Shown: positions 24,041 to 55,726 of the stretch, piece after piece
Layout: each line of letters opens with the position of its first letter
Numbering within the stretch: the first letter of the stretch is position 1
Source of the DNA: Lachnoclostridium sp.
Lineage (GTDB): Bacteria > Bacillota > Clostridia > Lachnospirales > Lachnospiraceae
Assembly: GCA_021770065.1 (NCBI GenBank)
Contig: JAETRR010000018.1
Span: 1-64,000, forward strand
DNA: 64,000 nt
Direction: 5' to 3'
Program-made: the position numbers and the translations under genes
The notes under the pieces: generated by a model
What the model was told of the DNA's origin: nothing
Seen by the model: only the letters and a program-made list of their open reading frames with translations
The model's database searches: none

Positions 24041-24245
24041 AAATAGCAAATTAGTCCACCTAAAAACGTAAATGAAAGAACATGTGCCTGTCAATAATGC
24101 GATATATTGGTTTTATCAAAATTAATTCGAAACAGCAATACCCCCTTTAGTGCAAAAGGAGTTGCGGACGCATATGCTGCCGGAAATATTTCTGGAAATA
24201 AGGTACTGTATGAGGTATTGCCAAACGAAGAATGGAGGAAGCAAT

Positions 24246-33080: not shown

Positions 33081-33107
33081 TCAGCAATAAAGAGACAAAA
33101 TGAGAAT

Positions 33108-33126
33108 AGGCGGGATTCTCCCGCCT
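33108..33126 (+). terminator. GC hairpin after the binding-protein gene
   Basis: AGGCGGG (33108-33114) and CCCGCCT (33120-33126) with a 5-base loop and a T-rich tail. It probably lowers transcription into the ATPase and permease genes relative to the binding protein. Confidence 0.6.
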
Positions 33127-33159
33127 GTTCTGTTCTATGAAAAAGAACTGTAATCAGCA

Positions 33160-33265
33160 ATTACATTCCAGTGCACAGAACAATTTACAGACACACGGAC
33201 TTGTGGCTGGGAATTGTTCTCAGAAGCCGTGTACTGGAATGTGATTGCGGAACTGGAATAGGGGG
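33160..33265 (+). ncRNA. Structured leader element, copy 1 (candidate cis-regulatory RNA)
   Basis: A nested three-stem structure. P1: ATTACATTCCAGTGCAC (33160-33176) pairs with GTGTACTGGAATGTGAT (33229-33245), 17 bp with two G-U pairs. P2: AGAACAATTTACAG (33177-33190) pairs with CTGGGAATTGTTCT (33207-33220). P3: CACA/TGTG with a six-base loop. It ends in GCGGAACTGGAATAGGGGG, which supplies the ribosome site for the TTG start at 33275. A second copy at 55126-55235 has different stem sequences but the same pairings, so the structure rather than the sequence is kept. Its ligand or role is unknown. Confidence 0.65.
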
Positions 33266-33274
33266 ATTTAAAAA

Positions 33275-34555
33275 TTGGCGAAGATTTTATTGGAAATGAA
33301 AAGCATCACCAAAACATTCCCGGGCGTCAAAGCGCTTGACAACGTCAATCTGAAGGTAGAAGAGGGCGAGATTCACGCTCTGGTAGGGGAGAACGGTGCC
33401 GGAAAGTCAACGCTTATGAATGTCTTAAGCGGTATCTACCCTTACGGAACTTACGAGGGAGACATTATTTACAACGGTGAGGTTTGTAAGTTCACAAAGA
33501 TAAAGGACAGCGAGGAAAAGGGAATCGTCATTATCCACCAGGAACTGGCTCTCATACCTTATATGACCATCGGAGAAAACATGTTCCTTGGAAATGAGAG
33601 GGGAAAAAAGGCAGCCATTGACTGGAGCGAAACCTACGGCCAGGCAGATAAAATAACGGTTATCCGGGACGGCTCCACCATTGAGACTTTGGACAAAGCC
33701 GTAGATGATATCAGTGAGGACCGGATTATCAAAGGAATGGTAGGCCGTGATTTGACAGACCGTTTTCCCAAAAGAACGGAAAAGAACATTGGAGAGATTA
33801 ACCTGGAGGTTAAGGACTGGACCGTATACCATCCTCTTTACACGGAACGCAAGGTGGTGGACGGCGTGTCCATGAATGTGCGCAAGGGCGAGGTGGTCGG
33901 CATCTCCGGTCTGATGGGCGCAGGGCGGACGGAGCTTGCCATGAGCATTTTCGGGAAGAGCTACGGAACGAATATCTCCGGAACTCTTAAGATTGCAGGG
34001 GAAGAGACAGAGCTTAAAAATGTCCGTGACGCCATTAAGCATAAGCTGGCCTATGTGACTGAAGACCGGAAAGGAAACGGACTTATTCTCTCCAATCCCA
34101 TAAAGATTAATACCACACTGGCCAATCTGGACAGCATCAGCGCCCGAGGCGTCATTGATAAGGACAGGGAATATCAGATTGCCGTGGAGTATAAGGAGAA
34201 ACTGAACACCAAATGTCCTACGGTGGAACAGAATGTAGGAAACTTAAGCGGCGGCAATCAGCAGAAGGTTCTTCTTTCCAAGTGGATGTTTGCCGATCCG
34301 GATGTTTTGATTCTTGATGAGCCTACCCGGGGTATCGACGTAGGTGCGAAATATGAGATTTACTGCATTATCAACAATCTGGTGGCAGAAGGAAAATCTG
34401 TGATTATGATTTCCTCCGAGCTTCCCGAAGTCCTTGGCATGTGTGACCGCATTTACGTGATGAATGAGGGGAAAATGGTGGGCGAGCTTACGGCGGAGGA
34501 AGCCACACAGGAGCGGATTATGGCCCAGATTTTAAAGTCAAGTAAAGGAGAATAG
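33275..34555 (+). CDS. Sugar ABC transporter ATPase (GguA/XylG-like) with in-frame internal deletion
   Basis: Only 426 residues, against about 505-512 for the family; start TTG 33275 behind GGGGG. The first nucleotide-binding domain has Walker [10 protein letters not shown] and Q-loop IHQELAL, but jumps from [12 protein letters not shown] straight to [14 protein letters not shown]. The signature motif, Walker B and H-loop of domain 1 are missing (about 85 residues). The second domain is complete ([38 protein letters not shown]). Intact relatives have an 'ADK' both before and after the lost block, which fits deletion between short direct repeats (GCAGATAAA). The protein is probably inactive in transport. 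Confidence 0.85.
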
Positions 34556-36267: not shown

Positions 36268-36325
36268 CTTAAAATAGTCCAGCTAAGAAATGTCAAGTGC
36301 TTATTAGAAATATTTCATGCTGGAT

Positions 36326-36418
36326 GGTAAAGCCGCAAAGGCGCACGAGAGGAACTTTCATGAGTGCCCTTTCGAATGAAAGTTTCTCTCAATACCGGTG
36401 TGCCGAAGCGGCTTTACC
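36326..36418. repeat. Large 93-nt hairpin upstream of the isomerase gene
   Basis: Three successive stem blocks: GGTAAAGCCGC (36326-36336) with GCGGCTTTACC (36408-36418), perfect; GGCGCAC (36340-36346) with GTGTGCC (36398-36404), one G-U; GAGAGGAACTTTCAT (36347-36361) with ATGAAAGTTTCTCTC (36376-36390), one mismatch. The loop is 14 bases. It could be a non-autonomous mobile hairpin (REP/MITE-like) or a regulatory RNA. Confidence 0.75.
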
Positions 36419-36447
36419 CTTTAGTGCTGTCGCGCAGCGACTTAAAA
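36413..36447 (+). repeat. Intergenic repeat with GTCGC-GCA-GCGAC hairpin, copy 1
   Basis: The segment carries CCCTTTAGTGCTGTCGCGCA and GCGACTTAAAA, with a small perfect stem GTCGC/GCGAC. Two more copies lie in tandem at 55061-55123, in both places just before another hairpin-bearing leader and a ribosome site. Confidence 0.7.
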
Positions 36448-36462
36448 TAGGAGGTACATAAC

Positions 36463-39579: not shown

Positions 39580-39851
39580 GAAAAGGATGAAAACTGAGTA
39601 AAGTATAGCATTTTTACAGCTGCTTTAGAAGATATTATATGGAAAAGAGAGACTGTCGTAAAACGAGTTTGATTTGCGGCATAGATGCTGTGTGACCTGC
39701 AGAATTGAAAAAGCCTTTTTAATCCGGGGATAAAAGCTAAACTGGACTGGTTAAAAAATGCATTACTGGCTATTTCTATCAATCCAGATTTGCAATATAA
39801 TGTGAGAAATCAAAAAAAGTCAAACAGCAATGTCCTTTGAATAGGGGAAAT

Positions 39852-39880
39852 TGCGGAACTGGAATAGGAGGCTCACATTA
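39852..39880 (+). promoter_or_regulatory. Conserved leader tail with ribosome site before the ECF gene
   Basis: TGCGGAACTGGAATAGGAGG is the same tail that ends both structured RNA elements (33246 and 55216). Here no matching three-stem structure precedes it; the remaining 39580-39850 DNA is AT-rich with no gene I can see. Confidence 0.5.
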
Positions 39881-40416: not shown

Positions 40417-40500
40417 CGCTTGTTTTACACAACATACTAAGAATATAAAACCTTTGCATTCCCAAAAGAAAATTGATATAATAATCTCAACAACATAAAC

Positions 40501-40685
40501 CGGCAGAGGATAACCCTAGAGACTTCCCGAAAGCAGATGACTGGGAAGCGCCGAAGAAGCAAATGAGGAAGCAGATCGGCTTCTTCGTGGAAACTGACAG
40601 GCAAAAGGAAGGTTGTCCGACGGAACTCTGGAGAGAGCGGCAGCGCCGCCGCCTACGTGGCTATAACCAACTGGTAAAAGGACAG
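40501..40685 (+). ncRNA. Glycine riboswitch (one full aptamer, one degenerate)
   Basis: Aptamer 1 shows the glycine core CGCCGAAGAAGCAAA (40549-40563) and GGAAACTGACAGGCAAAAGG (from 40589), with a P2-like CTTCCC...GGGAAG stem just before. The linker GTCCGACGGAACTCTGGAGA is the standard inter-aptamer segment. Aptamer 2 keeps only the 5' CTCTGGAGAGAG and the 3' CTGGTAAAAGGACAGAG; its central CCGAAG core is replaced by a short GC hairpin, as in single-aptamer forms with a 'ghost' second aptamer. It overlaps an intrinsic terminator, so glycine should control read-through into the dehydrogenase gene. Confidence 0.78.
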
Positions 40686-40722
40686 AGAGACAGATGCTTA
40701 AGTGCATTTGTCTCTTTTTTCT
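40686..40722 (+). terminator. Riboswitch expression-platform terminator
   Basis: AGAGACAGATGC (40686-40697) pairs with GCATTTGTCTCT (40704-40715) with one G-U, followed by TTTTT. Its 5' arm starts in the 3' end of the riboswitch (GGACAGAGAGAC), so ligand binding and termination are mutually exclusive. Confidence 0.88.
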
Positions 40723-55060: not shown

Positions 55061-55123
55061 TTACCCTTTAGTGCCATCGCGCAGCGACTTTACCCTTTAG
55101 TGCTGTCGCGCAGCGACTTAAAA
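55061..55123 (+). repeat. Two tandem copies of the GTCGC-GCA-GCGAC repeat
   Basis: Copies at 55061-55090 (GCCATCGCGCAGCGAC variant) and 55090-55123 (GCTGTCGCGCAGCGAC), each beginning TTACCCTTTAGTGC. Almost identical to 36413-36447. The copies are separated by no spacer. Confidence 0.75.
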
Positions 55124-55125
55124 CA

Positions 55126-55235
55126 GTAATATCCCTCACAGTGCACAAATCAATTTACAGGCACATATTTTTGTGACTGGAAATTGATTTAGGCTAAGGT
55201 GTACTGGGAGGGATGTTACGGAACTGGAATAGGAG
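55126..55235 (+). ncRNA. Structured leader element, copy 2 (candidate cis-regulatory RNA)
   Basis: Same architecture as 33160-33265. P1: 55126-55146 pairs with 55199-55219 (about 21 bp, two wobbles and one mismatch). P2: AAATCAATTTACAG (55147-55160) pairs with CTGGAAATTGATTT (55177-55190). P3: CACA/TGTG. Compared with copy 1 the P2 arms change AGAAC to AAATC with the partner changing GTTCT to GATTT, so pairing is preserved. The tail TACGGAACTGGAATAGGAGG carries the ribosome site of the next gene. Confidence 0.68.
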
Positions 55236-55243
55236 GATTTCTT

Positions 55244-55726
55244 ATGAAGACAATCAAAGCAAAACCAATCACTGTTGAAAACTTTGCACCCTATGGAAGC
55301 TTTACCAGCATTGTAGAGCCGTCGGGCAATGCCCTGGGGAACTTTTACAATGACAAGGTGCTTCTTCCGGTATCGGGAAGCATGCCGGTAGCATTTTCGC
55401 CTCTGGTGATGGACAAGCCGGACAAAATGATAATCCGTGAGGCGGAATATCACAATACCACAGGGGAAGGGATTCTTCCGGTGGACGATGACGTGGTTAT
55501 GCATGTTGCGCCGCCGAGCAAAGAGCCGGTTCCGGAGCTTACGGAAGCATTTATTGTTCCGAAGGGAACCATGGTTAAGATTAATACGGGCGTGTGGCAT
55601 ATGGGAGTGCTGCCGCTCAATCAGGAGCAGGTACATGTACTGATTGTACTTCCGGAACGGATCTATATGAATGACTGCACCGTAGTGACATATCCGGAAG
55701 AGGATCAGATGGAAATTGTGTTATAA
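55244..55726 (+). CDS. Ureidoglycolate-lyase-family (AllA-like) cupin protein
   Basis: From ATG 55244 (GGAGG) the 160-residue protein resembles the ureidoglycolate lyase/hydrolase cupins: KTIKAKPITVENFAPYGSFT, a barrel with MIIREAEYHNTTGEGILPVD, DDVVMHVAPPS, FIVPKGTMVKINTGVWHMGV, and VLIVLPERIYMNDCTVVTYP. Clostridial relatives occur in sugar-catabolic operons, where ureidoglycolate is not involved; a sugar lyase or mutarotase role is more likely but unproven. DUF4867 at 35650 belongs to the same general fold and genomic setting. Confidence 0.8.
   Translation: MKTIKAKPITVENFAPYGSFTSIVEPSGNALGNFYNDKVLLPVSGSMPVAFSPLVMDKPDKMIIREAEYHNTTGEGILPVDDDVVMHVAPPSKEPVPELTEAFIVPKGTMVKINTGVWHMGVLPLNQEQVHVLIVLPERIYMNDCTVVTYPEEDQMEIVL

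Follow-up and report, generated by a model that had tools for sequence, protein, structure and literature searches.

A dispersed hairpin family of about 105 bp located directly 5′ of Shine-Dalgarno sites in Lachnoclostridium and related genomes

Two hairpins in the 64,000-nucleotide stretch of Lachnoclostridium sp. DNA analyzed here (the window) belong to a dispersed, mobile-like family of about 105 bp. On balance we favor the view that each member supplies one fixed mRNA hairpin, exactly 5′ of a Shine-Dalgarno (SD) sequence and almost always in the sense orientation, and that this hairpin probably acts after transcription. The family has a high copy number in its genome, lies in sense before SD sites, occupies orthologous sites erratically, stacks with itself and with a sister element, and covaries in its stems. 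The family of copies 1 and 2 is called E1 below, and the sister element E2 (Table 1).

Table 1 E1, E2 and neighboring features in the window; the last four bases given for E2 are the start of the SD of ORF 36463
Feature	Position	Strand	Basis or remark
E1 copy 1, core hairpin and tail GGAACTGGAA	33155–33258	+	fold; covariance model, 98.3 bits
Copy 1, P1 5′ arm	33157–33176	+	fold and pair counts
Copy 1, P2 5′ arm	33177–33186	+	fold and pair counts
Copy 1, P2 3′ arm	33211–33220	+	fold and pair counts
Copy 1, one-sided 8-nt bulge on the 3′ side between P2 and P1	33221–33228	+	
Copy 1, P1 3′ arm	33229–33248	+	fold and pair counts
Copy 1, conserved tail	33249–33258	+	
SD region TAGGGGGATTT of the ABC ATPase gene	33259–33269	+	
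ABC transporter ATPase gene behind copy 1	33275–34555	+	PF00005
E1 copy 2, core hairpin and tail	55124–55229	+	fold; covariance model, 123.1 bits
SD TAGGAGGA of the cupin gene (ATG at 55244)	55230–55237	+	
Ureidoglycolate-lyase-type gene behind copy 2	55244–55726	+	PF04115, E 1e-10
Two E2 tails, 5′-truncated, abutting copy 2 upstream	55061–55123	+	
E2, similar predicted architecture	36319–36451	+	directly before TAGGAGG of ORF 36463
Degenerate E1 directly before an SD	24133–24231	+	38.2 bits
E1 remnant without P2, before ORF 39880	39825–39864 (tail end 39871)	+	27.2 bits

The hairpin in the window and its covariation

The preliminary description of this DNA reported two leader hairpins of the same fold 22 kb apart. 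Both are present, at 33155–33258 and 55124–55229, and their minimum free energies lie far beyond those of shuffled sequences: −50.8 kcal/mol for copy 1 against a shuffle mean of −27.4 (z −6.7), and −48.9 kcal/mol for copy 2 against a mean of −23.5 (z −7.2), with 0 of 200 shuffles as good in either case. The parts attributed to them are all found as well, namely a long P1, a P2 whose arms differ between the copies (AGAAC/GTTCT versus AAATC/GATTT), an A·G mismatch and the CACA/TGTG pairing, and both copies share the tail GGAACTGGAATAGG, which precedes the SD. In the P2/P3 region a further purine-purine mismatch alternates between A·G and G·A among copies. The 8-nt bulge between P2 and P1 recurs in the consensus of 49 E1 copies, and CGGAACT (33248–33254) shows high conservation that extends to the aligned copies of other genera.

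The gene behind copy 1 probably starts with the TTG at 33275. Its product has 426 amino acids, compared with 512 in the relative G007, owing to an in-frame loss of about 258 bp inside the first ATPase domain at a short shared sequence (33640–33660); this shortening is either a natural deletion or an assembly collapse. Between the preceding gene and copy 1 lies a GC-rich hairpin followed by T-rich sequence (33105–33138), which looks terminator-like by eye.

Pair-preserving change, which had been claimed from the two copies, extends to further homologues in the source genome and in other genera, where both P1 and P2 covary. Covariation was gauged by pair counts with shuffled and slid controls; the kinship of the copies inflates the shuffle control. 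Among 49 copies from the source genome (47 distinct), 97.1% of cells are paired and 20 of 36 pairs show double changes (shuffled mean 7.2, slid 3–9). Unguided RNAalifold recovers the E1 stems, and 17 of its 32 pairs show double changes. For 44 copies (42 distinct) from seven other genera, in an alignment fitted to the covariance model, double changes occur in 33 of 36 pairs (shuffled 21.3, slid 12–21) and in 309 cells, against 88 in shuffled and 27–78 in slid alignments. The inner helices pair there in 95–96% of cells and the outer P1 in only 74.3%, with pair 13–107 formed in 1 of 42 copies, so the outer P1 either differs or is misaligned in these genera. A chance likeness of the two hairpins can be rejected from the fold z-scores, the covariation and the 111 strong sense matches described below.

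The inner stems contain many more G·T than A·C appositions, 72 versus 4 in the source genome and 48 versus 6 in the other genera. Two column pairs, 20–81 and 29–64, supply most of the 72, so this excess does not stand for many independent events. An excess of this direction points to constraint on the coding strand, either as RNA or as that strand of DNA; it suggests constraint on the mRNA strand, a conclusion that is supported but less firmly. The opposite candidate, a single-stranded DNA hairpin of the bottom strand as the selected form, is disfavored by the same G·T excess, mostly in those two columns.

Copy number, placement and arrays

Far more than the two copies first described are present, as the source genome holds at least 111 strong sense matches. 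A blastn search with copy 1 gave 46 matches there, and a covariance model built from 49 E1 copies (R1) gave 140 matches with E ≤ 0.001 among 150 of 2,082 candidates scored. We sorted these into 111 strong sense matches (E 2.2e-16 or better) and 3 weaker sense matches, the other 26 being antisense echoes of the palindrome. The 111 include an identical pair at the ends of contigs C17 and C93 that may represent a single copy; otherwise 111 is a lower bound, since 150 of the 2,082 candidates were scored and related copies in the window lie outside the R1 list. The genome also has 48 exact tail sites, 16 of them outside that list; by eye one of these (L278) is nearly full length and the rest are tail-only or truncated, and all 16 appear to precede a start codon.

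The placement of these copies follows a simple rule: hairpin, CGGAACTGGAA, SD, start codon. Among the 114 sense copies, 17 have a further copy behind them in head-to-tail order and 97 are terminal. An open reading frame of 60 amino acids or more with an ATG, GTG or TTG start begins 9–22 nt downstream on the same strand in 94 of the 96 evaluable terminal copies (a looser count, with the ORF within 60 nt, gave 95 of 97 and is superseded by this one). The corresponding control counts are 2 of 113 on the antisense side and 28 of 96 when the search range is shifted by 30 nt, the latter presumably because the shifted range falls inside genes. One of the two exceptions is followed by another repeat and an E2, and the other has no convincing gene behind it. 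The copies run on as TAGGAG in 48 of the 94 cases. Copies in other genera (27 stretches; one further copy is too near a contig end) are similarly placed, with a sense start 8–30 nt downstream in 25 of 29 evaluable terminal copies and an antisense start in 2 of 29; the remaining four are followed, by eye, by a further copy, by a remnant or by a start that falls just beyond this range. Remnant tails seem to sit between the full copy and the SD in three stretches from other genera (L217, L203 and L205), and also in some arrays of the source genome. Given this placement, any action of the element would be on the mRNA of its downstream gene.

E2 occupies the same kind of site. Its predicted fold (36319–36451) has a long P1, a P2 and a 7-nt 3′ bulge, and then a small hairpin before the SD; R1 itself picks up the window's E2 at 37.9 bits. 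At least 55 E2 matches were found in the source genome (40 of 120 candidates scored), 44 of them near full length and 11 short. The 43 other near-full copies are 90–98% identical to the E2 of the window, and all 11 short ones derive from the 3′ region (query start 79 or later). Array-ending E2 copies (25 stretches and the window) also lie before SD sites, as judged by eye. An E2 or its 3′ part lies upstream within 400 nt of 32 of the 114 E1 copies, one of them at a distance of 285; 23 of these upstream pieces start at position 73 or later and 9 are near full length. Stacking next to the SD takes the forms E1, E1–E1, E2–E1 and E2–E2. A further small hairpin repeat (CCAGC…GCTGG; 36278–36324) lies 5′ of the E2 in the window, and similar stretches are found upstream of several E2 copies and also between E1 and E2 on contig C119.

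Retrotransposition was considered because the partial E2 matches retain the 3′ region. What weakens it is that reverse transcriptase (PF00078) has no match in two element-rich genomes, G000 (92.5% complete) and G006 (83% complete); PF00078 was found in six other element-bearing genomes of the genus.

Orthologous sites and distribution

The leader of prfA illustrates how erratically orthologous sites are occupied. Twenty genomes were searched and 19 examined by eye (G003, where the locus is split, was left out). The leader contains one E1 copy in G000, at least two in tandem in G002, only the tail in G013, an internally deleted hairpin in G007, a decayed remnant in G005 and an E2 instead in G012; no copy was seen by eye in the element-bearing G004 and G006, in seven non-bearing genomes of the genus or in four of other genera. 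The junction before ORF 36463 holds an E2 in the window, two E1 copies in G013 and two E2 copies in G007, and the site of the degenerate copy at 24133 is, by eye, empty in G007, with a similar SD. Occupancy is also mixed at other genes in the named relatives, a biased sample in that their contigs were chosen for carrying the tail. With its high dispersed copy number and its filled and empty orthologous sites, E1 shows two of the hallmarks of a MITE or other small dispersed repeat.

Among close orthologs, the stems tend to stay paired. Copy 1 and its orthologs in G013 and G007 differ by an A-U to G-C double change, an A·G to G·A swap and one broken pair. In three close sets (the copy 1 trio, C133:28769 and L080–L087), 8 of 11 hand-counted single stem changes keep pairing, against about a third expected (p 0.009, from 11 events and an expected rate that is our own estimate). 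More distant pairs give compensated versus broken changes of 7 versus 1 at C104 and 5 versus 3 at prfA, and the opposite trend at C133:24642 (3 versus 6) and C59 (1 versus 5). Most orthologous pairs are only 68–79% identical, so that replacement by another copy is indistinguishable from change in place. Continued constraint on resident copies is supported, but less firmly.

Forty of the 94 downstream proteins (30 taken in order of model score and 10 picked as recognizable-looking) were scanned against Pfam, and 38 have matches, nearly all to different families. These include PfkB kinase, cobalt chelatase, flagellar rod protein, response regulator, class V aminotransferase, zinc alcohol dehydrogenase (twice), BacA, asparagine synthase, a GTPase with a KH domain, rhamnose isomerase, YajC, an AAA/M41 protease, an SRP54-type GTPase, release factor 1, MreD and a Clp ATPase. 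The preliminary description had suggested a riboswitch-like regulator of sugar operons, and a ligand-sensing riboswitch would fit the leader position, the covarying structure and the conserved internal nucleotides. The genes behind E1 are nevertheless of many unrelated kinds and do not form a coherent set; the prfA leader is so erratically occupied that, by eye, an intact copy is present in two of the eight element-bearing genomes of the genus; two or three copies may stand in a row, and E1 joins E2 in mixed arrays; and the predicted folds leave the SD unpaired. Gene content and occupancy lead us to reject a riboswitch of one pathway, and we regard a ligand-sensing riboswitch of sugar operons as extremely improbable. 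The case warns that covariation and leader position are not sufficient to call a riboswitch.

The preliminary description did not recognize the structure as a known riboswitch class, and no Rfam 15 family reaches its gathering cut-off over either hairpin. In a looser Rfam search of two stretches every match stayed below cut-off; the best E values were 0.26 and, for a match upstream of the copy 1 core, 0.25. Across the whole window only a glycine-GGAnGA aptamer reaches cut-off (154.7 bits, 40500–40689), before ORF 40702.

A covariance-model search of Lachnospiraceae had been proposed, and it did find further homologues, both within the genus and in seven genomes of other genera. E1 occurs in 8 of 16 genomes of the genus and in at least 8 of 397 sampled genomes of the family, the latter in a shallow search that scored 9 candidates in each genome. 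When the seven bearing genomes outside the genus were searched more deeply, they gave 48, 9, 55, 1, 30, 123 and 1 matches, echoes included. Among the matches listed, the exact tail is found in contigs titled Lachnospiraceae bacterium or Clostridia bacterium, in one titled [Clostridium] symbiosum and in Acetatifactor muris DSM 23669. The exact tail pattern gave no match in viral contigs, and blastn found no match of copy 1 to phages or of copy 2 to plasmids.

A mobile hairpin at random positions with target-site duplications had been named as the alternative that would overturn a regulatory reading. It is partly right, as E1 behaves like a mobile element, but its positions are not random, being nearly all in sense and immediately 5′ of an SD; no target-site duplication is clear by eye in pairs of filled and empty sites. 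A purely selfish miniature element of the REP or MITE kind, in which the hairpin is a transposase substrate and the SD or its complement the target, with no function for the host, would account for the patchy distribution (8 of 16 genus genomes; 8 of 397 family genomes in the shallow search), the tandem and mixed arrays, the sites occupied in one relative but vacant in another, and the presence of E2 as a second family at the same sites, its near-full copies so similar (90–98%) to that of the window. Single-strand transposases of the IS200/IS605 kind leave no clear target-site duplication, which agrees with what is seen by eye here. On the other hand, close orthologous copies tend to keep their pairs (a small sample), and a scan for motifs of IS200/RAYT-type proteins (Y1, PF01797) found none in the 1.69 Mb of fetched sequence, which covers only part of any genome. 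We consider a purely selfish element somewhat unlikely.

Possible modes of action and known systems

The reading that we prefer has the hairpin act in cis, as part of the mRNA, where its most likely effect would be to set mRNA stability and SD accessibility for the cistron behind it. Neither predicted fold pairs the SD, which in copy 2 falls within the loop of a weak 5-bp hairpin, so SD occlusion is not the default state. Our first choice is that the stable upstream stem would shield the cistron from 5′ decay and insulate the SD, with a protein optional; the conserved UUUACAG/CUGGAAA part and the CGGAACU foot might be recognized by such a protein reader. The copies turn over between species and may erode down to the 3′ tail, and the SD or its complement may be the insertion target of a putative mobilizing enzyme. 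Repeated insertion at one landmark would explain the stacking, the mixed arrays and the single orientation together. Selection on the hairpin could also serve mobility rather than the host gene. More tentatively, E1 may stand for a class of mobile elements that targets the SD and provides stackable, portable RNA leaders before scores of unrelated genes, a transposable control of translation or mRNA stability that is rewired between sister species; we regard this wider claim as possible rather than probable.

If a protein reads the element, a global RNA-binding protein such as CsrA could use it as a binding platform. CsrA binds GGA motifs, and the tail CGGAACUGGAAUAGGAGG has GGA three times at 6-nt spacing, the last one in the SD. 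A csrA gene is present in G000 (contig C143), and CsrA (PF02599) is over cut-off in 8 of 8 element-bearing genomes of the genus versus 1 of 8 without the element, or, with other genera included, in 14 of 15 versus 11 of 28 (Fisher p 0.0009). This association may reflect motility and ancestry instead, since csrA in G000 lies behind a FliW-like ORF among flagellar genes (L250, 2735–3413; we take two ORFs of this neighborhood to be FliW and FlgL). Outside the genus alone the difference is not significant, at 6 of 7 versus 10 of 20 (p 0.18), with element absence in those 20 taken from shallow searches. Moreover, the middle GGA of the tail is not conserved, and the E2 copy examined does not have this tail. 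CsrA is a candidate reader on phyletic grounds only, and such a platform seems to us distinctly unlikely.

The long stems might alternatively be substrates for RNase III-type processing, or act as terminator-like hairpins, with no role at the SD; RNase III cleavage of Correia elements is described in a review (PMC10969869). No T run stands behind the stem in copies 1 and 2, however, and a fixed distance to the SD would be unnecessary, which makes this explanation quite improbable.

If an action on the mRNA is confirmed, a family locked to one direction and to the SD, before essential and accessory genes alike, would amount to a new form of post-transcriptional rewiring by a repeat, and the questions then raised are which machinery recognizes the SD and whether the host profits. 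Small dispersed hairpins usually occur in both orientations and with no tight spacing to genes. No description of E1 was found in the open-licence literature, among the matches listed, and as far as can be told from Rfam and that search the family is new.

Among the closest known systems are the BOX, RUP and SPRITE repeats of Streptococcus pneumoniae (PMC3049150), from which E1 may be set apart, by description only, through its sense orientation, its position directly 5′ of the SD and its stacking there. The TAACTGA direct repeats of marine Beggiatoaceae, in whose repeat-containing regions canonical ribosome sites are described as rare, are heptamers, whereas E1 is a covarying hairpin of about 105 nt that ends at the SD (PMC4679880). 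REP sequences are, like E1, high-copy extragenic palindromes (PMC2817692, PMC3116915, PMC3733652), but they measure 20–40 bp, in contrast to the approximately 105 nt, the single orientation to genes and the pre-SD position of E1; a further difference from the REP/RAYT system is that no RAYT-type protein was seen in the 1.69 Mb scanned here. Finally, the mobile or repeat candidates of a 50-genome RNA survey (PMC11109978) resemble E1 in being structured and present in multiple copies per genome; that survey marks such elements by their inconsistent orientation to neighboring genes, whereas both the orientation and the position of E1 are nearly constant.
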